A stretch of 64,000 nucleotides of DNA, taken from NCBI RefSeq assembly GCF_013426915.1, contig NZ_AP023179.1, forward strand, positions 806,001 through 870,000, written 5' to 3'. The DNA comes from Paraburkholderia sp. PGU19. Its GTDB lineage: Bacteria > Pseudomonadota > Gammaproteobacteria > Burkholderiales > Burkholderiaceae. A program made the translations under genes and the position numbers. Shown piece by piece: positions 4,009-45,477 of this stretch; position 1 is the stretch's first letter, and each line of letters starts with the position of its first letter. Below the pieces are notes generated by a model. That model was not told where the DNA came from. It made no database searches and saw nothing but the letters and a program-made list of their open reading frames with translations.

Positions 4009-4830
4009 TTAGTGCGCGCCCGAGCGCCGCTCGACGAACCGCGCAACGTAGTCGTCGGCGGGCTTCGTGAGGATTTCGTTCGGCGTGCCTTCCTGCACCA
4101 GCGTGCCGTCGCGCAGAATCGCGATGCGGTTGCCGATGCGCAGCGCTTCGTCCAGATCGTGCGTGATGAACACGATGGTCTTGTTGAGCGTCGCTTGCAG
4201 TTGCAGAAGCTGGTCCTGCATTTCCGTGCGGATCAGCGGATCGAGCGCGGAGAACGCTTCATCCATCAGCAGCACGTCGGTATCGGCGGCGAGCGCGCGT
4301 GCGAGACCCACGCGCTGACGCATGCCACCCGACAGTTCATCCGGATAGTGATCGCCGTACCCGTCGAGCCCGACCTTGCCGAGCCACATGCGCGCCTTCT
4401 CGTTCGCTTCCGCCTTGCTTTCGCCGCGCGTGCGCAGCGCATACGCGGTGTTGTCGAGCACGGTCTGATGCGGCAGCAGGCCGAAGTTCTGGAACACCAT
4501 GCTCACCTTGTAGCGGCGCAGCTCGCGCAGCCCATGCGGATCGAGCTTGATGACGTCCGAACCGTCGATCACGATCTCGCCCGCCGTCGGCTCGATCAGC
4601 CGGTTGAAGTGGCGCACGAGCGTCGATTTGCCCGAGCCCGACAGCCCCATGATCACGTAGATTTCACCCGAGCCGATATGCAGGCTCACGTTGTTCAGGC
4701 CGACGTTGCAGCCCGTTTGTACGAGTACTTCGGCCTTGCTCCTGCCGCTTTTCAAAAGTTCGAGCACGCGCCGATGACCGGCTTCCGGGCCAAAGAGCTT
4801 GTACACGTTCTTCACTTCGATCGATGACAT
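4009..4830 (-). CDS. proV: Glycine betaine/proline ABC transporter ATP-binding protein (ProV-like)
   Basis: A 273-residue ATPase starting [14 protein letters not shown]. It has Walker [10 protein letters not shown], signature LSGGMRQR, Walker [14 protein letters not shown] and the switch histidine in THDLDEALR. The insertion between strand 1 and Walker A ([19 protein letters not shown]) is typical of ProV/OpuAA. Unlike E. coli ProV (about 400 residues) it ends shortly after the ABC domain and lacks the C-terminal tandem CBS domains used for osmotic or ionic-strength sensing. It may therefore serve uptake for catabolism rather than osmo-gated uptake; that is inference. It is the last gene of a leftward unit, 14 bases after proW. 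Confidence 0.9.
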
Positions 4831-5875: not shown

Positions 5876-6913
5876 TCAGGTCGCCAGCGCGGCTTGAACC
5901 TTTTGCGCGACGTCGGTCGGCACCCATGCCTTCCACATGTCCGGGTGATCGCGCAGGAACTGTTTCGCCATCGTCGGGCCGTCGATTTTCTTGCTCGTCA
6001 TTTCGAGGATGGTCTTGTTGAGGAAGTCCATCGGGAAGCTGACCTTCGAATAGGTGTCCATCAACTGCGGCTCGGCCTGATAGAACGGCGTCGATACGCC
6101 AACCTTCAGATGCGACACGAGATACGACGACGCGCATTGCGATGTGCTGTTATCCGCGCGCAGTGTGTCCCAGCACTTCTGGTTGAACGCAGGCATCTTC
6201 AGCTGGACGAACTTGTACTTCGCCATCAGCGCTGCGGGTTCCCAGTAGTAGAAAAGGATAGGCTTGCCGCGCTGATACGCCGATTCGATTGCGGCATCGA
6301 GCGCCGCGCCCGTGCCGGGGCGGAAGTCGGTGTACGAATCGTCGAGATTCAGCGTCTTCAACAGACGCCGGTTCACGCGCTCGCAGTCCCAGCCCGACGG
6401 GCAGTTGAGGAAGCGGCCTTTGCCCGGCTCTTCGTCGTCTTCGAACACGCCTTTGTACTTCGGCAGATCGGTCACGGACACGAGGTTCGGCGCGACGGGT
6501 TTGATGTTGCGCTTCGCGTCACCCTTCACCACGTACTCGGGCACGAACCAGCCTTCATTCGTGCCGCCCGGCAGCGTGTCGCCGAGCAGCTTCACGTGGC
6601 CGTCGGCGACCGCTTTCGCGATGATCTCCGAGCGGCCCGTCCACTGTTCGGACCACACTTGCAGATCGTCGCGCGACAGCGCCGTTTCCGTTGCGGCCGT
6701 GTTGCCGGGAATCGTGTCCGTCTTGCAGCCGTAGCCTTTTTCGGTGATGAAGCGCAGCACTTCCGACGTGAACGAGCCGCTTTCCCACGTGACGCCCGCA
6801 AAGCGCACGGGTTTCCCCGCCGAGCACCAGGTGCCGGCGTGAGCGGCGGCGGGCCATAACGCGCTGGCGGCGAGCGCGACCGTGGCGGCGCGCATCAGGG
6901 ATCTGATCTGCAT
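5876..6913 (-). CDS. proX: Glycine betaine/proline-type periplasmic binding protein (ProX-like)
   Basis: A 345-residue OpuAC-family solute-binding protein. Residues 1-26 form a Sec signal peptide ending AAAHA before GTWCSAG. The mature part has GVTWESGSFTSEVL, LQVWSEQWTG and LFYYWEP. Aromatic residues of this kind form the cage that binds quaternary ammonium compounds in this family. Several cysteine pairs suggest disulfides. It lies first of the three transporter genes and 63 bases after the enolase-superfamily gene. Binding of glycine betaine, proline betaine or a related compound is a family-level inference. Confidence 0.88.
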   Translation of the reverse strand: MQIRSLMRAATVALAASALWPAAAHAGTWCSAGKPVRFAGVTWESGSFTSEVLRFITEKGYGCKTDTIPGNTAATETALSRDDLQVWSEQWTGRSEIIAKAVADGHVKLLGDTLPGGTNEGWFVPEYVVKGDAKRNIKPVAPNLVSVTDLPKYKGVFEDDEEPGKGRFLNCPSGWDCERVNRRLLKTLNLDDSYTDFRPGTGAALDAAIESAYQRGKPILFYYWEPAALMAKYKFVQLKMPAFNQKCWDTLRADNSTSQCASSYLVSHLKVGVSTPFYQAEPQLMDTYSKVSFPMDFLNKTILEMTSKKIDGPTMAKQFLRDHPDMWKAWVPTDVAQKVQAALAT

Positions 6914-28912: not shown

Positions 28913-30049
28913 TCAGCAGTTCTGCGGCTTTTCGGCCGCGCTGCCCGGCATCGGCACGAAGCCGGTGACTTCGAGCCCATAGCCGGACATGCTGCCCAGC
29001 TTGCGCGGGTTCGACAGCACCTGCATCTTGCCGACACCGAGTTCGCGCAAAATCTGCGCGCCGATGCCATACGTCTTGAAGTCCACCGGGCGGCGCTTGA
29101 GCGCCTCGGCCCGGCTCTTTTCGTCGAATGCCTTGAACACGTCGATCATGTGTTCTTTCGAGTCGCCGCAGTTCAGCAGCACGATCACGCCGTGATCGCG
29201 CGCGGCAATTTCCTTCATGGCGGCGTCGAGCGTCCACGAGTGCGTGGACGTGCCGACTTCCAGCAGATCCAGCACAGAGAGCGGCTCGTGCACGCGCACC
29301 ATGGTTTCGCGCTCCGGCGTAGGCGTGCCGCGCACCAGCGCCATGTGCGGCTGGCCGCTCGGCTGGTCCAGATACATCACCGCGCGGAACGGGCCGTGCA
29401 CGGTTTGCATCGTGCGTTCGCAGACGCGCTCGACGATCGATTCCGTGCGGCTGCGATAGTGGATCAGGTCGGCGATCGTGCCGATCTTCAGGCCATGTTC
29501 TTCGGCGAACGTCAGCAGGTCGGGCAGGCGCGCCATCGTGCCGTCGTCCTTGATGATTTCGCAGATCACGGCAGCGGGCGTGAGGCCCGCGAGCGCCGTG
29601 AAATCGCAACCGGCTTCCGTGTGGCCCGCGCGCACCAGCACGCCGCCCGGCTGCGCCATGATCGGGAACACGTGGCCCGGCTGAACGATGTCCTCGGTGC
29701 GCGCGTTTGCCGCGACGGCCGTGGCGATGGTATGCGCGCGGTCCGCCGCCGAAATGCCCGTGGTGACGCCTTCAGCCGCCTCGATGCTGACGGTGAACGC
29801 CGTGCCGTACTGCGTGCCGTTGCGGTGCGTCATCAGCGGCAGGTTCAGCAGCCTGCAGCGTTCCTGCGTGAGCGTCAGACAGATCAGGCCGCGGCCATAG
29901 CGCGCCATGAAGTTGATCGCTTCGGGCGTGATGAACTCCGCTGCGATGACGAGGTCGCCCTCGTTTTCGCGGTCTTCTTCGTCGACAAGAATCACCATCC
30001 GGCCCGCTTTGAGCTCGGCGATGATTTCAAGGGTGGAGGCGAGTGTCAT
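28913..30049 (-). CDS. ribBA: 3,4-dihydroxy-2-butanone-4-phosphate synthase with degenerate GTP cyclohydrolase II-like domain (RibBA/RibBX)
   Basis: A 378-residue two-domain protein. Residues 1-205 are the 3,4-DHBP synthase RibB, with the acidic loop [11 protein letters not shown] and HTEAGCDF. The C-terminal half has the fold-length of GTP cyclohydrolase II, but where the three zinc cysteines should be (pattern GxxxxSLRCDCG) it reads [15 protein letters not shown], with no cysteine triplet. The GCH II activity is therefore probably lost. A separate RibA elsewhere would then supply the pyrimidine precursor. It sits between ribE and ribH in the operon. Confidence 0.93.
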
Positions 30050-36232: not shown

Positions 36233-38149
36233 TCAATCCCGCGGCGACGCCGCCGCCCCATGACTCAGCCAGTCGAGCACAGCCGACGTATCATCATCCG
36301 AGCCCTTGCGGGTCTTAGCGACGGCAGCACTAACCTCAGAAGCCGGCGCCGCCCGCCGAATCGCGACCCCAACAGCAAGAATATCGATCATCAACAGATG
36401 CAGCACCCGCGAGATCATCGACAGTTGCGACTCGCGAATCTCGATATGATCGGTTTCCAGCGCAACGGTCGCGCGCTTAGCCAAAGGCGTATTACTCGAC
36501 GTAATCGCGATCACCTTGGCACCCGCCTGCATCGCCACTTCCAGAACACGCAGCAATTCGGGCGCACGTCCCGACTTCGAAACAGCGACGATCACGTCAC
36601 CCTTACCGAGCAACGCAGCCGACGCCGCCTGCATATACAGATCGCCATAAGCAATAGTCGGAATGCCAAAACGGAAGAACTTGTAATGCGCATCCTGCGC
36701 GACGATGTTCGAATTACCGAGACCATAAAACTCGATACGCCGCGCACTGTTCAGCAGATCGATGGCCGCCTCGACGTGCTCGAAGTTCAGATGCTCGCGC
36801 AACTGCAAAATCGCCGACACCGTGTTGTCCAGCACCTTCGCGCCGAAGTCCGTCGCCGTATCGCCAAGATGAACCTGGCTATGCGAGACGGGAATGGTGC
36901 CCGTCAAACCCGTCGCAAGCTTCAGCTTGAAATCGGACAAGCCCTGGCAGCCAAGTGAACGGCAGAAGCGGATCACCGTCGGCTGGCTCACATCGGCCTT
37001 GCGCGCGATATCGACGATCGGGTCGTTGATGATCGAACGCGGGTGATTCAGCGCGAGATCCGCGACGCGCCGCTCGGCAGGCGTCAACGCATCACGCATC
37101 TGGCGAATGCGCTCGAATACCGCCGACGAACTGCCGCCCGCGCGGTTCGACAACTGCTCCGCGAGAATCGCCGATACACCGAGAAACGCCGGATATTCCG
37201 CCGTGATCACATAAGTCGGCACGTTCTTCAGATACGCCTCGAAGCGGCCCTTCGCCTCGAAACGCTGGCGGAACGACGAGCGCGCGAACACTTCGCCCAG
37301 ACGCGGCACGACGCCGCCGCCGATATAGATGCCGCCCAGCGCGCCCAGCGTCACCGCGATATTGCCGGCGAAGGTGCCGAGAATGCCGCAGAACACATCG
37401 ATGGTTTCCGCCGCGAGCGCGTCGCCATCAAGACCTTTCTTGACGATCTCCGATACTTCGAGCGTCGCGGGCACGCGCTTCTTGTCGCGTTGGGCCAGCG
37501 CGCGATAGATCACTTCGATGCCGGGCCCCGCCGCCACGCGTTCGAACGACACATGCGACCACTTCTTGCGTGCGTACTGCAGCACGAGGTCTTCGCGTTC
37601 GTCCATCGGTGCGAACGTCGCGTGGCCGCCTTCGCTGCCGAGCGCGATCCAGCGGTCATCAGCGGGAATCAAGCCCGACACGCCCATGCCCGTGCCCGGC
37701 CCGAGCAGGCCGATCACGCTGTTCTGACGACGCGAGCCGCCGCCCACCTGCACGCGCTGCGCATCGGTGAGACCCGGAAGCGCCATCGCCAGGGCGGTGA
37801 AGTCATTGACGACCAACAGCGTATCGAAGCCCAGCGCGCGGCGCGTCGCTTCGATCGAGAACGTCCAGTCGTGATTGGTCATGCTGACCTGATCTCCATC
37901 GACCGGGTTCGCAATCGCAATCGCCGCATGATTCACGCGGCCGATCTTGGTGTCTTTCAGATACTTCTTGATGACCTCTGCAACACCCGGATACTCCGCG
38001 CAGGGATAGACCAACACCTGCGTGATTTCGCCAGGACCCGTCTCAAGCGCAAAGCGCGCATTGGTGCCGCCGATGTCGGCGAGCAGCCTCGGTCCGTCGG
38101 CGTGCTGTCCCGCACCGGGGACAGTCTTAGTTTGCACACCAGTAGACAT
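36233..38149 (-). CDS. glk: Bifunctional glucokinase / HexR-type RpiR-family transcriptional regulator
   Basis: A 638-residue fusion. Residues 1-335 are a glucokinase of the bacterial type: [12 protein letters not shown] for [16 protein letters not shown] with the catalytic Asp116, [11 protein letters not shown] and [10 protein letters not shown]. Residues about 343-415 are an RpiR helix-turn-helix with recognition helix [13 protein letters not shown]. Residues about 470-600 are a SIS sugar-phosphate domain ([23 protein letters not shown]), as in HexR. The protein would phosphorylate glucose and repress ED-pathway genes, derepressed by a sugar phosphate such as KDPG in relatives. Its ATG at 38149 overlaps the pgl stop by 23 bases, so the two are coupled. 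The 3' end is GT-rich on the coding strand. Confidence 0.93.
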
Positions 38150-38834
38150 CGAGTCTCACTCCCTTGTCGTTCGCCAACGTCGAGATGGCATTTTTTTGTT
38201 GGGCGGCTGCGGCGGCATTGAGCACGTCGAGCTTTTTCTGACCGGCGATCAGCAGGAACACCCGGTCGATCTTCTTCAAGGCGGACATCGACCAGCTCAC
38301 GCGCGCATGCGGCGCGGCGCCGGGATGCACGGCGACGAACGGATCGGCTGTCGAGATCGCATGGTCCCATTCGGGCGCGTCCGCGAAAATCGATGCCGTG
38401 TGGCCGTCTTCGCCCATGCCGAGCACGGCAATGTCGGGCAAATGACGATCGCCGCTCGCAACTTCGCCGTTCAGCGCGGCAATGTAGGCATCGAGCGATT
38501 GCGTCGTATCCACGAGCGGAAGGAAGGCGGCGTCACGCGCGGCATGCTGCAACAGCGTCTCGCGTGCAAGGCGCGCGTTGCTGGCGTCGTCGGTTTCGGG
38601 CACCCAGCGGTCGTCGACGAGCGTCACCGCGATGCGCTTCCAGTCGAACGGCTGCGTGGACAGGGTTTGCAGAAACGGACGCGGACTCGTGCCGCCGGAC
38701 ACGGCAAGCGTCGTTGCGCGGGCGCGGGTCGCGCTCGCACGGGCGGCGAGCGACGCATGTAACGCGTCGCCGACCGCCTTCGCCAGCGCGTCGGATTGGG
38801 CGCGCGGGTCGTCGAAAGCGTGAAGCTCGATCAC
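38127..38834 (-). CDS. pgl: 6-phosphogluconolactonase
   Basis: A 235-residue enzyme of the SOL/DevB family. It has [15 protein letters not shown], the [20 protein letters not shown] region and [12 protein letters not shown], which carry the phosphate-binding and catalytic residues that hydrolyse 6-phosphogluconolactone. The start is taken as GTG at 38834, behind GGAGGAGAA, because the homologous N-terminus ([13 protein letters not shown]) begins there; the longer ATG frame is not conserved. It lies between zwf (237 bases upstream) and glk-hexR. Confidence 0.9.
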
Positions 38835-39071
38835 TTCTCCTCCATGCTGCTTTCTTTGTTTGATCTGAATTGCTGCGGCGCGACGTCGGTTCCAGATAGG
38901 AGCCGCCGTCGACATGTCCCGCGGCTGCCGCTACCGGTCCTTTGTGATCCAGGTCCGGTCCGGCGATTCAAGCTGTGTTCAATCGATACTTCATACGGCG
39001 CGCCGCGAGACAAACATCGATCATCGCAGGACAAAACAAAACGCGCCGCTCAAACGTCCAATCGAGTCAGT

Positions 39072-40529
39072 TCAATTCTCTTCTTCGAGCCAGCAGGTGC
39101 CATGCTGCGCGAGCATCGCGCTCGCGGCGGCGGGACCCCACGTGCCCGACGCGTAAGGCTTCGGCTTGCCTGACGCGGCCCATTCGTTGAGGATCGGCTC
39201 GACCCACTTCCATGCCGCTTCCTGTTCGTCGCGACGCACGAAGAGGGCGAGGCGTCCGTTGATCACGTCTAGCAGCAGACGTTGATACGCCTCCATCTGG
39301 CCTTCCTTGAAGAACTGGTCGAAGGCGAGATCGAGGTGGACGCTCGACAGGTTCATCCCTTCGCCCGGCTTCTTCGCGAGGCAATAGAGGCGAATCGTTT
39401 CGTTCGGTTGCAGGCGGATCACGAGACGGTTCGCGCCCGCGCGCAGCGCCGACGCCCCGAGCGCCGAATGCGGCACCGCGCGGAAGTTGACCACGATTTC
39501 CGCGACGCGATCGGCGAGCCGCTTGCCCGTGCGCAGGAAGAACGGCACGCCCGCCCAGCGCCAGTTTTCGATCTCGACCTTCAGCGCGACGAACGTTTCC
39601 GTCGCGCTGTCCGTCTTCACGCCGGATTCCGTCGCATACGCGGGCACGGATGTGCCGCGAATGACGCCCGCGTGATACTGGCCGCGCACGGCGACCTTGC
39701 TGATATCGCGCGGATCGATCGGCTTCAAGGCGCGCAGCACGCGCAGCTTTTCATCGCGGACGGAATCCGAATCCATGGAATGCGGCGGTTCCATCGCGAC
39801 GATCGAAAGCAGTTGCAGCAAATGGTTCTGCACCATGTCGCGCAACGCGCCCGTATTGTCGTAGAAGTCGCCGCGCGCTTCGACGCCGAGTTCTTCCGCA
39901 ATCGTGATCTGGATGCTCTCGACCCACTCGCGCCGCCATAGCGGTTCGAACAGCGCATTGCCGAAACGCAGCGCCAGCAGGTTCTGCACGGGCTCTTTGC
40001 CGAGATAGTGGTCGATGCGGTAGATCTGCTCTTCGGCGAAGATCTCGCCGACAGCGTCGTTGATCGCATTCGACGAACGCAGGTCATAGCCAAGCGGCTT
40101 TTCCAGCACGATGCGCGCGTTCTCGTTCAAGCCCACGGACGCGAGCGCATGGCAGATCGGCACGAACAGCGACGGGCCTGTGGCCAGATAGAACACGCGC
40201 GTACCGGCGTGATCCTGCAAGGCATCGCGCAGCTTGACGAAGTCTTCGGCCTTGCCGAGATCGAGCTTCACATACTCGATACGGTCGACAAAGCCCGCCC
40301 ACGCGTTTTCATCGATGCCGCTCTTCGCGACATGCGCCTTCACGTGCTCATTGACCCATTGCAGATAACCCGCACGGTCTTCCTCATGACGCGCGACAGC
40401 AACGATCTTGCCGCTCGCCGCGAGCATGCCTGCACGGTGCGCTTCATACAGAGCCGGGAGAATCTTGCGCATCGACAGATCGCCAGTTCCGCCGAAGAGA
40501 ACGAAGGTGAAGCTAGAGTCGGTTTGCAT
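39072..40529 (-). CDS. zwf: Glucose-6-phosphate 1-dehydrogenase
   Basis: A 485-residue enzyme starting MQTDSSFTFVLFGGTGDL behind GGAG. The N-terminal FGGTGDLSMRK binds NADP, RIDHYLGKEPVQN holds the substrate-binding lysine and histidine, and the C-terminal domain is full length. It oxidises glucose-6-phosphate to the lactone that Pgl then opens, feeding the Entner-Doudoroff route. It is first of zwf-pgl-glk. The HexR-like palindrome 71 bases upstream probably controls it too. Confidence 0.95.
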   Translation of the reverse strand: MQTDSSFTFVLFGGTGDLSMRKILPALYEAHRAGMLAASGKIVAVARHEEDRAGYLQWVNEHVKAHVAKSGIDENAWAGFVDRIEYVKLDLGKAEDFVKLRDALQDHAGTRVFYLATGPSLFVPICHALASVGLNENARIVLEKPLGYDLRSSNAINDAVGEIFAEEQIYRIDHYLGKEPVQNLLALRFGNALFEPLWRREWVESIQITIAEELGVEARGDFYDNTGALRDMVQNHLLQLLSIVAMEPPHSMDSDSVRDEKLRVLRALKPIDPRDISKVAVRGQYHAGVIRGTSVPAYATESGVKTDSATETFVALKVEIENWRWAGVPFFLRTGKRLADRVAEIVVNFRAVPHSALGASALRAGANRLVIRLQPNETIRLYCLAKKPGEGMNLSSVHLDLAFDQFFKEGQMEAYQRLLLDVINGRLALFVRRDEQEAAWKWVEPILNEWAASGKPKPYASGTWGPAAASAMLAQHGTCWLEEEN

Positions 40530-40588
40530 GCGTCTCCGTGGGATGTCCGATGGGCCTGTAAGGCGCCCGTAGTCCAATAAAATATTTT

Positions 40589-40617
40589 TTGACACTGAAT
40601 TGTAGTTTAACTACAAT
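40589..40617 (+). promoter_or_regulatory. Strong sigma-70 promoter facing the sugar ABC transporter genes
   Basis: TTGACA at 40589-40594, 17-base spacer, TACAAT at 40612-40617, close to consensus. Transcription would start near 40624 and run through a roughly 437-base leader to gtsA-like. The HexR-like palindrome lies across its spacer and -10. Confidence 0.7.
40600..40616. promoter_or_regulatory. HexR-like operator
   Basis: TTGTAGTTTAACTACAA is a perfect 17-base palindrome with eight-base arms around a central T. It resembles published HexR sites (TGTA-N7-TACA; TTGT-N-ACAA type). It occludes the -10 of the rightward promoter and lies 71 bases upstream of zwf, whose downstream gene encodes a HexR domain. 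Binding is inferred from motif and context. Confidence 0.72.
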
Positions 40618-41060
40618 CCAAATCAAGAGGTAACGTGAATTCGATGAAAAAAGCGTGCGGGGCTTGTGAACAAGCGCCTTTTCGCGGGTGATCGTAGCTT
40701 CCCTGCATGTTAACGGACAACGCGTTCCGACATGCGCCAGCGTGCCCTTTGAGCGCGGCGCAGCATGACGGAGACAGGCGTTTTCATTGAACGACGTGCG
40801 CGGACCACCTCGAGTCTGCAACGCGCCGCAGTCAGAAGGCGGAGCAGGCAAAAATCAAAAGAGGAGACAGTTCTTGCATCGCAAATCACTCATCTCTTGA
40901 GCGTCACGCGGCCGAGCCTCGGCACGCTGGCACAACCACATCATCATGTGCCTGCCCGACGCTCGACCGTCCATCGCATTGCCTGTTTGACCAACCATCA
41001 CACCCTGGTGACATCAGGGGCCACTCGTTTTTAAGTTCAGGTGTCTGGAGGAGATAAGCA
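40618..41060 (+). other. Long leader of the sugar ABC transporter operon, with attenuator-like hairpin
   Basis: About 440 bases lie between the promoter and the first gene, with no established product. GGGGCTTG at 40659-40666 pairs with CAAGCGCC at 40671-40678 (seven of eight) and is followed by TTTT, a weak terminator-like element just downstream of the start. A frame from GTG 40635 to 40691 (18 codons, with MKKACGACEQAP) has an AGAGG upstream. A 13-base palindrome GCCGAGCCTCGGC lies at 40911-40923. Confidence 0.45.
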
Positions 41061-42308
41061 ATGAAATTCCGTGCGATCATGGGCGCCCTGTGCGCCGCAG
41101 GTCTGATGTGTGGCGTCGCCACGGCACAGGCGGCCGAATCGGTTGAAGTGCTGCACTGGTGGACCTCGGGCGGCGAATCGAAGGCTGTCGGCGTGTTGAA
41201 GGACGACCTGCAGAAGCAGGGATACACGTGGAAGGACTTCGCGGTGGCAGGCGGTGCGGGCGCAGCGGCCATGACGGCACTGAAGACCCAGGTGATCTCG
41301 GGTAACGCGCCGAGCGCGGCTCAGATCAAGGGTCCGCTGATCCAGGACTGGGCATCGCAAGGCGTGCTGGTGAACATCGACTCCGTCGCGGGTGACTGGA
41401 AGAAGAACCTGCCGCCCGAAATCGACAAGATCATCCACGCAGACGGCCACTATGTCGCCGCGCCGTTCTCGGTGCACCGCGTCAACTGGCTGTACATCAA
41501 CAAGGAAGCGCTCGACAAGGCAGGCGGCAAGGTGCCGACCACGTGGCCTGAGTTCTTCGCTGTCGCCGACAAGATGAAGGCAGCCGGCATCCAGCCGATC
41601 GCCATGGGCGGCCAGCCGTGGCAAGACCTGACGCTGTGGGAAGACGTCGTGCTGTCGCAAGGCGCGGACTTCTACAAGAAGGCGCTGGTCGACCTCGACC
41701 AGAAGACGCTGACGTCGGAGAAGATGGTCGGCGTGTTCGACACGGTCCGCAAGATCCAGGGTTACTTCGACAGCGGCCGCACGGGCCGTGACTGGAACCT
41801 GGCAACGGCGATGGTCATCAACGGCAAGGCCGGCATGCAGTTCATGGGCGACTGGGCGAAGGGCGAGTTCGCGAACGCGAACAAGAAGTCCGGTTCCGAC
41901 TACATCTGCGCAGCGGTTCCGGGCACGGAGAAGTCGTACACGTTCAACGTCGACTCGTTCGTGTTCTTCCAGCAGAAGGGCCAGAAGGCAGCGACGGCGG
42001 GTCAGCTCGCGCTCGCGAAGACCATCATGAGCCCGGACTTCCAGGAGCAGTTCAGCCTGTACAAGGGCTCGATCCCGGTCCGCCTGGGTGTGTCGATGGA
42101 TAAATTCGACGACTGCGCGAAGAAGTCCTACGCTGATGAACAGACGGCCATCAAGTCGGGCGGCTATGTGCCGTCGCTGGCTCACGGCATGGCTCAGCCG
42201 GACGCAGCAGCAGGCGCAATCTCGGACGTCGTGACGAAGTTCATGAACTCGAATCAGGACTCCAAGACCGCCGTTGCTGCACTCGCGAAGGCTGCGAAGA
42301 CCAAGTAA
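41061..42308 (+). CDS. gtsA: Glucose/mannose ABC transporter substrate-binding protein (GtsA-like)
   Basis: A 415-residue family 1 (sugar) solute-binding protein. A signal peptide (MKFRAIMGALCAAGLMCGVA, cleaved after AQA) is followed by EVLHWWTSGGESKAV, KTQVISGNAPSAAQIKGP and HRVNWLYINKEAL. These match the Pseudomonas glucose-binding GtsA family closely. Strong GGAGGAG ribosome-binding site. It is first of four transporter genes and is followed by an intercistronic hairpin. Glucose as substrate is supported by the divergent zwf-pgl-glk. Confidence 0.9.
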   Translation: MKFRAIMGALCAAGLMCGVATAQAAESVEVLHWWTSGGESKAVGVLKDDLQKQGYTWKDFAVAGGAGAAAMTALKTQVISGNAPSAAQIKGPLIQDWASQGVLVNIDSVAGDWKKNLPPEIDKIIHADGHYVAAPFSVHRVNWLYINKEALDKAGGKVPTTWPEFFAVADKMKAAGIQPIAMGGQPWQDLTLWEDVVLSQGADFYKKALVDLDQKTLTSEKMVGVFDTVRKIQGYFDSGRTGRDWNLATAMVINGKAGMQFMGDWAKGEFANANKKSGSDYICAAVPGTEKSYTFNVDSFVFFQQKGQKAATAGQLALAKTIMSPDFQEQFSLYKGSIPVRLGVSMDKFDDCAKKSYADEQTAIKSGGYVPSLAHGMAQPDAAAGAISDVVTKFMNSNQDSKTAVAALAKAAKTK

Positions 42309-42461: not shown

Positions 42462-43400
42462 GTGACTGCTTCTATTAGCGGAAACGCAAAAGGCACGGCG
42501 TCAACCGCACGCGTGTCGCCGATGGCGGCATTGGCCGACCGCTGGATGCCGAAGCTGGTGTTGTCTCCCAGCATCGTAATCAGCCTTGTCTTTGTCTACG
42601 GTTTCATTCTCATCACGGGCTATCTGTCGCTGTCTACTTCGCGATTGATGCCGCGTTACGATTTCGCCGGTTTCGACCGGTACGTCGAACTGTTCGATAA
42701 CGACGTATGGTGGACGTCGGCGGCGAACCTTGGCTGGTTCGGCATTCCGTTTATCGCGATCTGCGTCGGCTTGGGTCTGTTTCTCGCGATCCTGCTCGAT
42801 CAGAAAATTCGCAATGAAGGCGCATTGCGTGCGGTGTTCCTGTATCCGATGGCGCTGTCGTTCATCGTGACGGGCACGGCATGGCAGTGGATTCTGAACC
42901 CCGATCTCGGCTTCCAGAAAGTGCTGAACGACTGGGGCTGGACGAGCTTCTCGTTCGGCTGGCTGGGCGACCCCGACAAGGCGATTTTCTGCGTCGTGAT
43001 CGCGGCCGTGTGGCAATCGACGGGTTTCGTGATGGCGCTGTTCCTCGCGGGTTTGCGCGGTGTCGACAGCGAAATTTTCAAGGCTGCTCAAGTGGACGGC
43101 GCGACGCTGCCGACCATCTACCGCAAGATCGTGATTCCGAGCATGCGCCCCGTGTTCTTCTCGGTGCTGCTGATTCTCTGCCACATCACGATCAAGACCT
43201 TCGACCTCGTCGTCGCGTTGACGGCGGGCGGTCCGGGCACGTCGTCGTCGCTGCCCGCGATGTTCATGTACACGTTTTCGTTCAACCGTGGGCAACTGGG
43301 CGTCGGCGCTGCGTCGTCGATGATGATGCTCGCAACCGTCGTGGCCGTGCTCGTGCCGCTGATGTATCTCGAATCGAGGAGCACGCGCAATGCAGCCTAA
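42462..43400 (+). CDS. gtsB: Sugar ABC transporter permease 1 (GtsB-like)
   Basis: A 312-residue permease starting with GTG at 42462 behind GGAG. Six predicted helices follow a long N-terminal segment. The EAA loop appears as EIFKAAQVDGATLPTIYRKI, consistent with the MalF-like subunit of sugar importers. It follows gtsA by 153 bases, including the hairpin, and overlaps the next permease gene by 11 bases. Confidence 0.9.
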   Translation: MTASISGNAKGTASTARVSPMAALADRWMPKLVLSPSIVISLVFVYGFILITGYLSLSTSRLMPRYDFAGFDRYVELFDNDVWWTSAANLGWFGIPFIAICVGLGLFLAILLDQKIRNEGALRAVFLYPMALSFIVTGTAWQWILNPDLGFQKVLNDWGWTSFSFGWLGDPDKAIFCVVIAAVWQSTGFVMALFLAGLRGVDSEIFKAAQVDGATLPTIYRKIVIPSMRPVFFSVLLILCHITIKTFDLVVALTAGGPGTSSSLPAMFMYTFSFNRGQLGVGAASSMMMLATVVAVLVPLMYLESRSTRNAA

Positions 43401-44247
43401 GATGAACATCAGTCGCGTTGTCATCTATGCGGCGCTGATTCTGTTTGCGTTGTACTTCCTGTTCCCGCTGTACGTGATGCTGTCGACGTCGTTCAAGGAC
43501 ATCGACCAGCTGCGCAGCGGCAACCTGCTGACGCCGCCGACGCACTGGACCTTCGCGCCGTGGATCAAGGCATGGAGCGAAGCCTGTACGGGCGTGCGCT
43601 GCGAAGGCATGCAGCCGTTCTTCTTCAATTCGGTGAAGATGGTGATCCCGGCCGTGCTGTTGTCGTCGATCATCGGCGCGTTCAACGGTTATGTGCTGAC
43701 GCACTGGCGCTTCCGTGGCGCGGATGCGTTCTTCACGATGCTGCTGGTCGGCTGCTTCATTCCGTTCCAGGCGATCCTGCTGCCGATGGCGCGCGTGCAA
43801 GGCTACTTCGGCCTGTCGAACACGATTGGCGGGCTGGTGCTGGTGCACGTGGTCTACGGTATCGCATTCACGACGATGTTCTTCCGCAACTTCTACGTGA
43901 GCGTGCCGGCAGAACTCGTTAAGGCGGCGCGTATCGACGGCGCCGGGTTCTTCATGATCTTCACGAAGATCATGATGCCGATCTCGCTGCCGATTTTCAT
44001 GGTGTGCCTGATCTGGCAATTCACGCAGATCTGGAATGACTTCCTGTTCGGTATCGTGTTCTCCGGCGTCGATTCGATGCCGATCACCGTGGCGCTGAAC
44101 AACCTCGTGAATACGTCGACGGGCGTGAAGGAATACAACGTCGACATGGCGGGCGCGATCATCGCGGCACTGCCGACGCTGCTCGTCTACGTGATCGCCG
44201 GCCGCTATTTCGTGCGCGGCCTGACGGCGGGCGCGGTGAAGGGTTAA
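43390..44247 (+). CDS. gtsC: Sugar ABC transporter permease 2 (GtsC-like)
   Basis: A 285-residue MalG-like permease. The EAA loop is VKAARIDGAGFFMIFTKIMMP. It begins with MQPKMNISRVVIYAALILFA; the ATG at 43390 overlaps the gtsB end by 11 bases, and a second ATG four codons later is possible. It forms the channel heterodimer with the preceding protein. Its stop is 114 bases before the ATPase gene. Confidence 0.9.
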   Translation: MQPKMNISRVVIYAALILFALYFLFPLYVMLSTSFKDIDQLRSGNLLTPPTHWTFAPWIKAWSEACTGVRCEGMQPFFFNSVKMVIPAVLLSSIIGAFNGYVLTHWRFRGADAFFTMLLVGCFIPFQAILLPMARVQGYFGLSNTIGGLVLVHVVYGIAFTTMFFRNFYVSVPAELVKAARIDGAGFFMIFTKIMMPISLPIFMVCLIWQFTQIWNDFLFGIVFSGVDSMPITVALNNLVNTSTGVKEYNVDMAGAIIAALPTLLVYVIAGRYFVRGLTAGAVKG

Positions 44248-44361: not shown

Positions 44362-45477
44362 ATGGCAAGCCTTTCCATCCGTGACGTGTACAAGACCTAC
44401 CCGAACGGGGTGCCTGTCCTGAAGGGTGTCAATATCGACATCGAAGACGGTCAGTTCCTGATTCTCGTCGGCGGCTCGGGCTGCGGTAAGTCGACGCTGC
44501 TCAACATGATCGCCGGTCTCGAGACCGTGACGAAGGGCGATATTCAGATCGGCGGCAAGACGGTGAACAACCTGTCGCCGAAAGATCGCGATATCGCGAT
44601 GGTGTTTCAGTCGTATGCGCTGTATCCGTCGATGACGGTGCGCGAGAATATTTCCTTCGGGTTGAATATCCGCAAGGTCGCGAAGGGCGAGCAGGATCAG
44701 ATTGTCGCTCGCGTTTCGAAGCTGCTGCAGATCGAGCATTTGCTGGATCGGAAGCCTGGCCAACTGTCTGGTGGGCAGCGTCAGCGGGTGGCGATGGGGC
44801 GTGCTTTGGCGCGTGATCCGGCTATGTTCCTGTTTGACGAGCCGTTGTCGAACCTCGATGCGAAGCTGCGGATTGAGATGCGCTCGGAAATCAAGCTGCT
44901 GCATCAGCGCCTGGGTACGACTATCGTTTATGTGACGCATGATCAGATCGAGGCTATGACGCTCGGCGATCGTATCGCGGTTATGAAGGATGGCGTCGTT
45001 CAGCAGTTCGGTGCGCCGCAAGAGATTTATGATTCGCCTTCGAATCTGTTTGTGGCTGGGTTTATCGGCGCGCCGCCGATGAACTTCATTCAAGGTAAGG
45101 TTGTTGAGCAAGGTTCAGGCGTTGGGCTCGAGCTTGATACGGGTGTAAAGCGGTCGGTGCTGAATCTGCCTTTCGATGGGGCGGTAAAGGGGCATGTGGG
45201 GAAGGATGTGATTCTCGGTCTGCGTCCTGAGCGGATCACCGATGCGCGTAATGCTCATAATGCCGACGACGCTAAACTGCAAGCTATCGATGTTAAGGTC
45301 GATGTGATCGAGCCGACTGGGCCGGATACTTTGGTGTTCGCGCAGGTTAATGGGAAGCGCATCGTTAGCCGCGTTCACCCGAGTTCTAATCCGCTGCCTG
45401 ATCAAAACATGGCGCTGATGTTTGATGTCTCTAAGGCGGTTCTGTTTGATCCTAAGACGGAAGAGCGGATTGCTTAA
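44362..45477 (+). CDS. Sugar ABC transporter ATP-binding protein (MsmK/UgpC/GtsD-like)
   Basis: A 371-residue ATPase starting MASLSIRDVYKTYPNGVPVL. Walker A is GGSGCGKST, signature LSGGQRQRVAMGRAL, Walker B MFLFDEPLSNLDAK and the switch histidine VTHDQIEA. A C-terminal TOBE-type regulatory domain of about 130 residues follows, as in MalK. It energises the importer encoded by the two permease genes upstream. The last 400 bases use noticeably more G and T (GGT, ATT codons) than the first half. Ends in a terminator. Confidence 0.9.
   Translation: MASLSIRDVYKTYPNGVPVLKGVNIDIEDGQFLILVGGSGCGKSTLLNMIAGLETVTKGDIQIGGKTVNNLSPKDRDIAMVFQSYALYPSMTVRENISFGLNIRKVAKGEQDQIVARVSKLLQIEHLLDRKPGQLSGGQRQRVAMGRALARDPAMFLFDEPLSNLDAKLRIEMRSEIKLLHQRLGTTIVYVTHDQIEAMTLGDRIAVMKDGVVQQFGAPQEIYDSPSNLFVAGFIGAPPMNFIQGKVVEQGSGVGLELDTGVKRSVLNLPFDGAVKGHVGKDVILGLRPERITDARNAHNADDAKLQAIDVKVDVIEPTGPDTLVFAQVNGKRIVSRVHPSSNPLPDQNMALMFDVSKAVLFDPKTEERIA

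Follow-up and report, generated by a model that had tools for sequence, protein, structure and literature searches.

The locus raises the question of which protein acts on a perfect palindrome lying between two divergent sets of sugar genes, and whether this one site serves both directions. The whole stretch of DNA analysed (the window) covers 64,000 nucleotides of the 11.2-Mb genome of Paraburkholderia sp. PGU19. Three genes run leftward on its minus strand: zwf, encoding glucose-6-phosphate dehydrogenase (39072-40529; TIGR00871, 573 bits), pgl, encoding 6-phosphogluconolactonase (38127-38915; TIGR01198), and a gene for a protein of 638 amino acids in which a glucokinase is fused to an RpiR-family regulator (36233-38149). 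Four importer genes run rightward on the plus strand, with the palindrome in between. They encode a gtsA-like solute-binding protein (41061-42308; weak matches to sugar or glucose binding-protein models, below the cut-offs), gtsB-like and gtsC-like permeases (42462-43400 and 43390-44247; below-cut-off matches only, the best to a glucose permease model) and a UgpC/MalK-like ATPase (44362-45477; NF008653, 469 bits against a cut-off of 432). The substrate of the importer is predicted to be a sugar.

The palindrome, TTGTAGTTTAACTACAA (40600-40616), is made up of two perfectly matched 8-base arms around a single central base, with the core TGTAGT-TTA-ACTACA. In the first-pass annotation, this 17-base palindrome was described as spanning the spacer and most of the -10 hexamer of a plus-strand promoter, TTGACA-17-TACAAT. 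Both features were recovered: the promoter occupies 40589-40617, with its hexamers at 40589-40594 and 40612-40617 and a spacer of 17. A promoter scan of 40450-41100 returned two sigma-70-like promoters, compared with a mean of 0.3 after shuffling. The second, TTGATT-16-TACAAT, lies on the minus strand (40599-40626, with its -35 at 40621-40626), faces zwf, overlaps the importer-side promoter and is also marked by conservation. The importer-side promoter matched the consensus at 11 of 12 positions, against 9 of 12 for the zwf-side promoter. Each -10 hexamer consists of a palindrome end and a single adjoining base. The palindrome was confirmed to lie 71 bases from the zwf ATG (40529), and the earlier suggestion that both directions may respond is strengthened by the conserved consensus promoter found on the zwf side. 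Transcription is predicted to start near 40624 on the importer side and near 40592 on the zwf side, and the leaders would measure approximately 437 nt and 63 nt, respectively. A conserved CGTAGTCC block with an A+T-rich stretch precedes TTGACA in the alignment (40568-40588) and is putatively UP-element-like. Within it, CGTAGTCCRATAAAA or near variants (40568-40582) were preserved between the operator and zwf, importer-less genomes included, and the Ralstonia-like loci printed were without CGTAGTCCRATAAAA. No terminator was found in a search of 40450-41100.

In 64 kb, a perfect 8+1+8 palindrome is in itself no rarity. Two were found in the window, the second at 29182 and no others, compared with a mean of 2.85 in 20 dinucleotide shuffles; in the 531-base gap between zwf and gtsA, one was expected 0.008 times (2000 shuffles). 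A chance origin was ruled out by conservation across the family genomes. The palindrome was also considered as an RNA element, and this was rejected for want of any Rfam match up to an E value of 1 in 40400-41300. The importer leader, folded as a stretch of 447 nt, had no marked RNA structure (z -1.14), and RNAalifold on 24 leaders yielded four pairs. An 18-codon GTG open reading frame just after the promoter was discarded, its GTG being present in only 3 of 26 aligned sequences.

It had been proposed that other genomes of the family be searched for the same palindrome. In a sample of 200 family genomes, the 17-mer with no more than one mismatch was present in 107, at most once per strand. The stretch 40589-40617 was invariant in 26 aligned sequences, and the flanking 20-base windows at 40550 and 40650 had a mean identity to the window of 0.49 and 0.52. 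In the whole host genome the 15-base core occurred once without mismatch, and the palindrome is thus its only full-quality site. Core matches with two mismatches numbered 7 and 9, compared with 32 and 27 in the reversed control; being rarer than the control, they were treated as background as a group. The site was found at three mismatches or fewer in 164 of 169 loci. The exceptions were a locus that had lost the regulator half (L072, genome G028), two from genomes without the fusion (L089 and L090), a stretch ending 882 bases before the fusion (L122) and L074. In the last (genome G185), zwf, pgl, the fusion gene and gtsA were all broken and the operator was not found, a decay of the whole locus.

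Removal of repeats left 152 distinct loci, namely 127 of importer type (gtsA 188-515 bases from the site), 17 of edd type and 8 with neither gene on the right. TTGACA and TACAAT were present in all 127 importer-type loci and the palindrome was the same in 125; the zwf-side -10 was TACAAT in 124 and the zwf-side -35 began with TTG in 123. All 17 edd-type loci had TTGACA, TACACT and a zwf-side -35 beginning with TTG, and 14 had the zwf-side TACAAT. Among the 8 loci with neither gene, TTGACA at the 17-base spacing was found in none (L053 kept it at a spacing of 15) and the zwf-side TTG in two. These importer-less genomes (L015 and seven of genus g8) represent about two events, and the palindrome was kept in them, exactly so in three of the eight. 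The loss of the importer-side -35 is suggestive, as it fits a lost need for the importer-side promoter, although the contrast is not clean, the same eight genomes having a weak zwf-side -35 as well. Where the search, limited to 400 bases, located zwf, the gene lay 48-180 bases from the site; the distance was approximately 494 in G016 (L080), and zwf was missing near the site in L068 and L079.

A further conserved region of the importer leader (40860-40900) contains a mini-ORF of 8 codons (40874-40900, plus strand), which starts with TTG after the Shine-Dalgarno-like AGAGGAGACA. The arrangement, with GGAGACA (which the window has as AGAGGAGACA) ahead of TTG and 8 codons, lies 137-232 bases before gtsA. 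It was present in 121 of the 127 distinct importer-type leaders, with exactly 8 codons in 117; GGAGACA was not found in the leaders of L079, L081, L082, L083, L113 and L152. The 120 mini-ORFs found by script all started with TTG, stopped with TGA (99) or TAA (21) and encoded 41 different peptides. Two of them had 9 codons, in L013 through a 3-base insertion, and one each had 33 and 36. The conservation of length and frame, but not of the peptide, suggests that the act of translating the mini-ORF matters rather than its product.

The divergent operon was said earlier to encode one protein with both glucokinase and RpiR/SIS domains, and all of these domains were found. By profile, the glucokinase domain appears complete (PF02685, 372 bits, residues 22-331, covering positions 1-313 of 314), and the kinase half could be aligned to E. 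coli Glk (1q18). HTH_6 (residues 345-413, 69.5 bits) and SIS (residues 466-593, 67.3 bits) both scored above their cut-offs. The whole protein (residues 1-638) matched NF010701, the bifunctional regulator/glucokinase model, with 1286.9 bits against a cut-off of 920, and its best named matches were from Paraburkholderia and Burkholderia. A structure prediction of the fusion from 31 sequences gave a mean pLDDT of 62 and a pTM of 0.43, with residues 623-638 below 50. In genomes from other families of the order, the glucokinase and regulator matches were adjacent yet separate (G368, G354, G362 and G384), and in G368 the matched stretches overlapped by 5 bases. A simple reading would be that the fusion arose from neighbouring genes.

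The label HexR, which the first-pass annotation gave to the regulator half and to the palindrome, was not supported in its strict sense. The fusion scored 237.7 bits with the curated HexR model NF008451 (240.3 in a second comparison), below the cut-off of 296, and its regulator half was nearer to RccR, with 41% identity to the aligned piece of that protein and 35% to E. coli HexR. Linkage to zwf, as for HexR, was present. The arms of the Pseudomonas HexR consensus TTGT-N7/8-ACAA were also present, but at a spacing of N9, while the 15-bp RccR form TGTAGT-N3-ACTACA was found in full at 40601-40615. The HexR consensus of Shewanella is a 17-bp sequence with N9. The fusion has the Arg pair of the recognition helix (RFCR), with position numbering matched by us to P. 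putida HexR, for which the pair is named in the relevant passage of PMC5902321. An operator of the HexR/RccR type, cognate to the fused protein, is supported by comparison.

The NF010701 model was above its cut-off in 108 of the 200 family genomes. The fusion and the site (at most one mismatch) occurred together in 104 genomes and were both missing from 89; four had the fusion only and three the site only, and these counts are not independent trials, since the genomes share ancestry. In all four genomes with the fusion only (G048, G072, G090 and G168), the site was present at two mismatches. Around the match in G019 (L067), one of the three with the site only, no zwf, gtsA or fusion was found, and this is probably a chance match; L067 is not among the 169 loci above. 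The fusion of G036 fell just under the cut-off (883.8 bits), and in the reduced genome G060 the match stops short of the regulator half.

Rearranged loci tell more than these counts. In G036 (L079), the order was fusion, site, importer, with no zwf or pgl match in 7 kb. No zwf or pgl match was found in 9 kb in G017 (L068) either, and here the site was present in two copies, at 4518-4534 and 5978-5994, one before the importer and the other flanked by the fusion and a gene judged by eye to be porin-like. In the 17 loci of the Ralstonia-like genus g11, the core lay between zwf and edd (assigned from the protein start and then matched), with a one-base change in one locus. The fusion and the site are the constant pair in all these rearrangements. 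A second, imperfect copy, e.g. GTGCTTTAACTACA, was seen in the Ralstonia-like loci L055-L066, approximately 20 bases past the operator towards edd. Genus g8 contributed eight genomes (1.1-3.8 Mb); in the loci read from them, the importer was absent or in pieces (L051, L054, L072 and L075), and zwf, pgl and the glucokinase half remained. The site was found at three mismatches or fewer in seven of the eight, and the regulator half was missing in four. In these four (G007, G028, G060 and G070), the core was intact in one, changed in two and gone in one. Site changes were also observed in G046 and G090, fusion-bearing relatives of the reduced clade.

We consider it likely that the fused glucokinase-repressor has the palindrome as its operator, shared by the promoters of zwf-pgl-fusion and of the importer. 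As each palindrome end supplies one -10, a single bound protein could shut both promoters. A bound dimer would cover both -10 hexamers, so that uptake, phosphorylation, oxidation and the protein's own synthesis would be blocked together. In the absence of bound repressor, the overlapping footprints would set the two promoters in competition for polymerase, and release would be brought about by a sugar phosphate from early in the pathway.

The operator might instead act in one direction, on the importer only, with zwf transcribed from another promoter and the opposite-strand -10 arising as a by-product of the palindrome. The poorer consensus match on the zwf side fits such an arrangement, and the zwf-side -10, being almost wholly inside the palindrome, would be conserved whatever its use. 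The zwf-side -35 is outside the palindrome, however, and its TTG was retained in nearly all importer-type and all edd-type loci. The scan of 40450-41100 revealed no further promoter-like site, the site lies near zwf where zwf was located, at a greater distance in G016, and the palindrome is retained by genomes without the importer. These points make a one-directional operator improbable. It is more improbable still, and to a marked degree, that the fused regulator activates one of the two promoters rather than repressing it. Leyn and colleagues are reported to have described, in 2011, a dual action of HexR, with activation of gluconeogenic genes in Shewanella. Here the site lies over the spacer and -10 of both promoters, where a bound protein is expected to obstruct polymerase; being near consensus, the importer-side promoter would hardly need an activator.

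The other candidate for the palindrome is a second protein of the same genome. A stand-alone paralog of HexR/RccR type is encoded divergently from edd, at 3270835-3271665 of C1, also delimited as 3270832-3271674 (4333-5178 of L176), and if it bound the palindrome, the fused regulator would be a bystander or act elsewhere. In favour of the paralog are its higher score with NF008451 (251.5 against 240.3 bits) and its KDPG pocket, in which the nine positions are kept with Thr for two Ser (the last two positions by our own count). Some of its sites also have one half-site in common with the palindrome, and some cross-binding is possible. The paralog has operators of other forms, though. The gap before its gene contains two operators unlike the palindrome, and the sites seen in this gap across 28 relatives, less strong in L224, include AGTAGAAAAACTACA, TGTAGATTTTCTACA, TGTAGTTTTTGTACA and AGTAGAAATTCTACA. 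Among 40 genomes searched, an ortholog at 71% or above was not found in G048, G072, G046, G080, G016 and G036; all six have the fusion, and the palindrome core is intact apart from one change in G046. The reverse was seen in the Cupriavidus-like G002 and G190, where a 54% relative is present, yet neither the fusion nor the palindrome. In these genomes the site persists where no ortholog of the paralog was found and is absent where the fusion is absent, which indicates that the palindrome belongs with the fusion, and binding by the paralog in its place is unlikely. The first-pass proposal that one fused regulator acts in both directions from one shared site is the one that the genome comparison favours most; the fused protein is not the sole regulator of its kind in the genome, given the edd-linked paralog.

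KDPG had been proposed as the inducer of the fused repressor, and this part fared less well. According to the structural passages of PMC10810197, P. aeruginosa RccR contacts KDPG through S139, H148, R152, H164, S183, S185, S188, K270 and R277. At the first seven positions, the fusion has S480, Y489, R493, Y505, S524, S526 and A529 (RccR numbering plus 341), so that four contacts are kept (S, R, S and S) and three are changed (H148 to Y489, H164 to Y505 and S188 to A529). Positions 148 and 164 are also different in E. coli HexR and are thus not decisive. For K270 and R277, no matching C-terminal Lys/Arg helix was found in the fusion; the aligned piece of RccR excludes the C-terminal end of that protein. 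The Lys/Arg pair was present in E. coli HexR, the HexR of L179 and the edd-linked paralog, and the L181 relative and the C2 paralog were without the full pair, in a comparison that involves few stand-alone proteins because HexR was above the cut-off in only 1 of 143 class-level genomes.

In 103 distinct full fusions, position 489 was always Tyr, position 505 was Tyr in 102 and His in one (L079), and position 529 was Ala in 85, Ser in 17 and Leu in one. Fusions from elsewhere, with Massilia, Telluria, Janthinobacterium, Roseateles and Rhodocyclaceae among the names, differ at the pocket positions, some having His at both, as in RccR. All 103 ended in a W-L-x-H-G tail, and S629 and H630 reached at least 90% conservation in alignment A1. 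Among the 113 RFC-motif proteins listed, mostly fusion fragments, 104 had Ser-His near the C-terminus, 6 had Thr-His or Leu-His and 3 had neither. The Ser-His motif (36233-36300 in the window) follows a variable linker and takes forms such as WLSHG, LISHLDS and LTSHSR; it was absent from E. coli HexR, the HexR of L179 and the edd-linked paralog, which were aligned to their ends. The fused pocket thus differs from those of its KDPG-reading relatives, which leaves release by KDPG unproven. By analogy, KDPG is retained as the default effector of the fusion, with glucose 6-phosphate as the bold alternative. Tentatively, and with more doubt than confidence, it may be suggested that the canonical KDPG pocket is gone from the SIS half, which would instead sense the kinase's own product, glucose 6-phosphate, or a different sugar phosphate formed early; the fusion would then control uptake and oxidation, and the KDPG-type paralog, with its different operators, would control edd-eda. 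If such a self-reading switch is real, the Ser-His tail would belong to the rebuilt pocket or help to couple kinase and repressor.

The locus was compared with known systems on the basis of passages in PMC5489143, PMC5902321, PMC10810197, PMC5343134 and PMC3223726. HexR, as presented in those of PMC5902321, is likewise a glucose catabolic repressor of the RpiR family with HTH and SIS domains, a site at the zwf promoter and a divergent layout. It differs in that its gene stands alone, its target operons are several and its sites are TTGT-N7/8-ACAA, whereas in the window the regulator is fused to glucokinase, the arms are N9 apart, the importer lies opposite zwf and the genome has a single full-quality operator. 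RccR of Pseudomonas shares the 15-bp site and the identity of the regulator half over the aligned piece (PMC5489143, PMC10810197). In contrast, the RccR targets given there include aceE, aceA and pckA (PMC5489143), and KDPG is read through the nine residues (PMC10810197). Over its full length, the fusion belongs to NF010701/PRK14101, 'bifunctional transcriptional regulator/glucokinase', a model name that gives no operator, target or effector. The RegPrecise reconstruction of HexR regulons in Proteobacteria likewise has zwf-pgl and glk as targets (PMC5343134). The HexR text of that paper, in the part consulted, names gammaproteobacterial lineages only, and RegPrecise may list this site for Burkholderia. 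The zwf-pgl-glk cluster in these genera is described in sections of PMC12568896 and PMC8231600, the former naming a bifunctional glucokinase-HexR and neighbouring ABC transporters. No study of the operator or effector of the fusion was found in a literature search that had most subscription journals outside its reach, and glucose, glucokinase and sugar are never mentioned in the main text of the B. cenocepacia start-site paper (PMC4603805).

At this locus the regulator and the operator are fixed, and the gene across the site varies (importer, edd or porin-like). If the preferred reading of a shared operator of the fused protein is true, one protein carries out the first step of glucose use and, through one operator, governs both the importer and its own gene, in 104 of the 200 sampled genomes. 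Two paralogs whose operators can be told apart would then share the job of one Pseudomonas HexR, and direct tests would become possible for the effector of this fusion enzyme, which is widely annotated.
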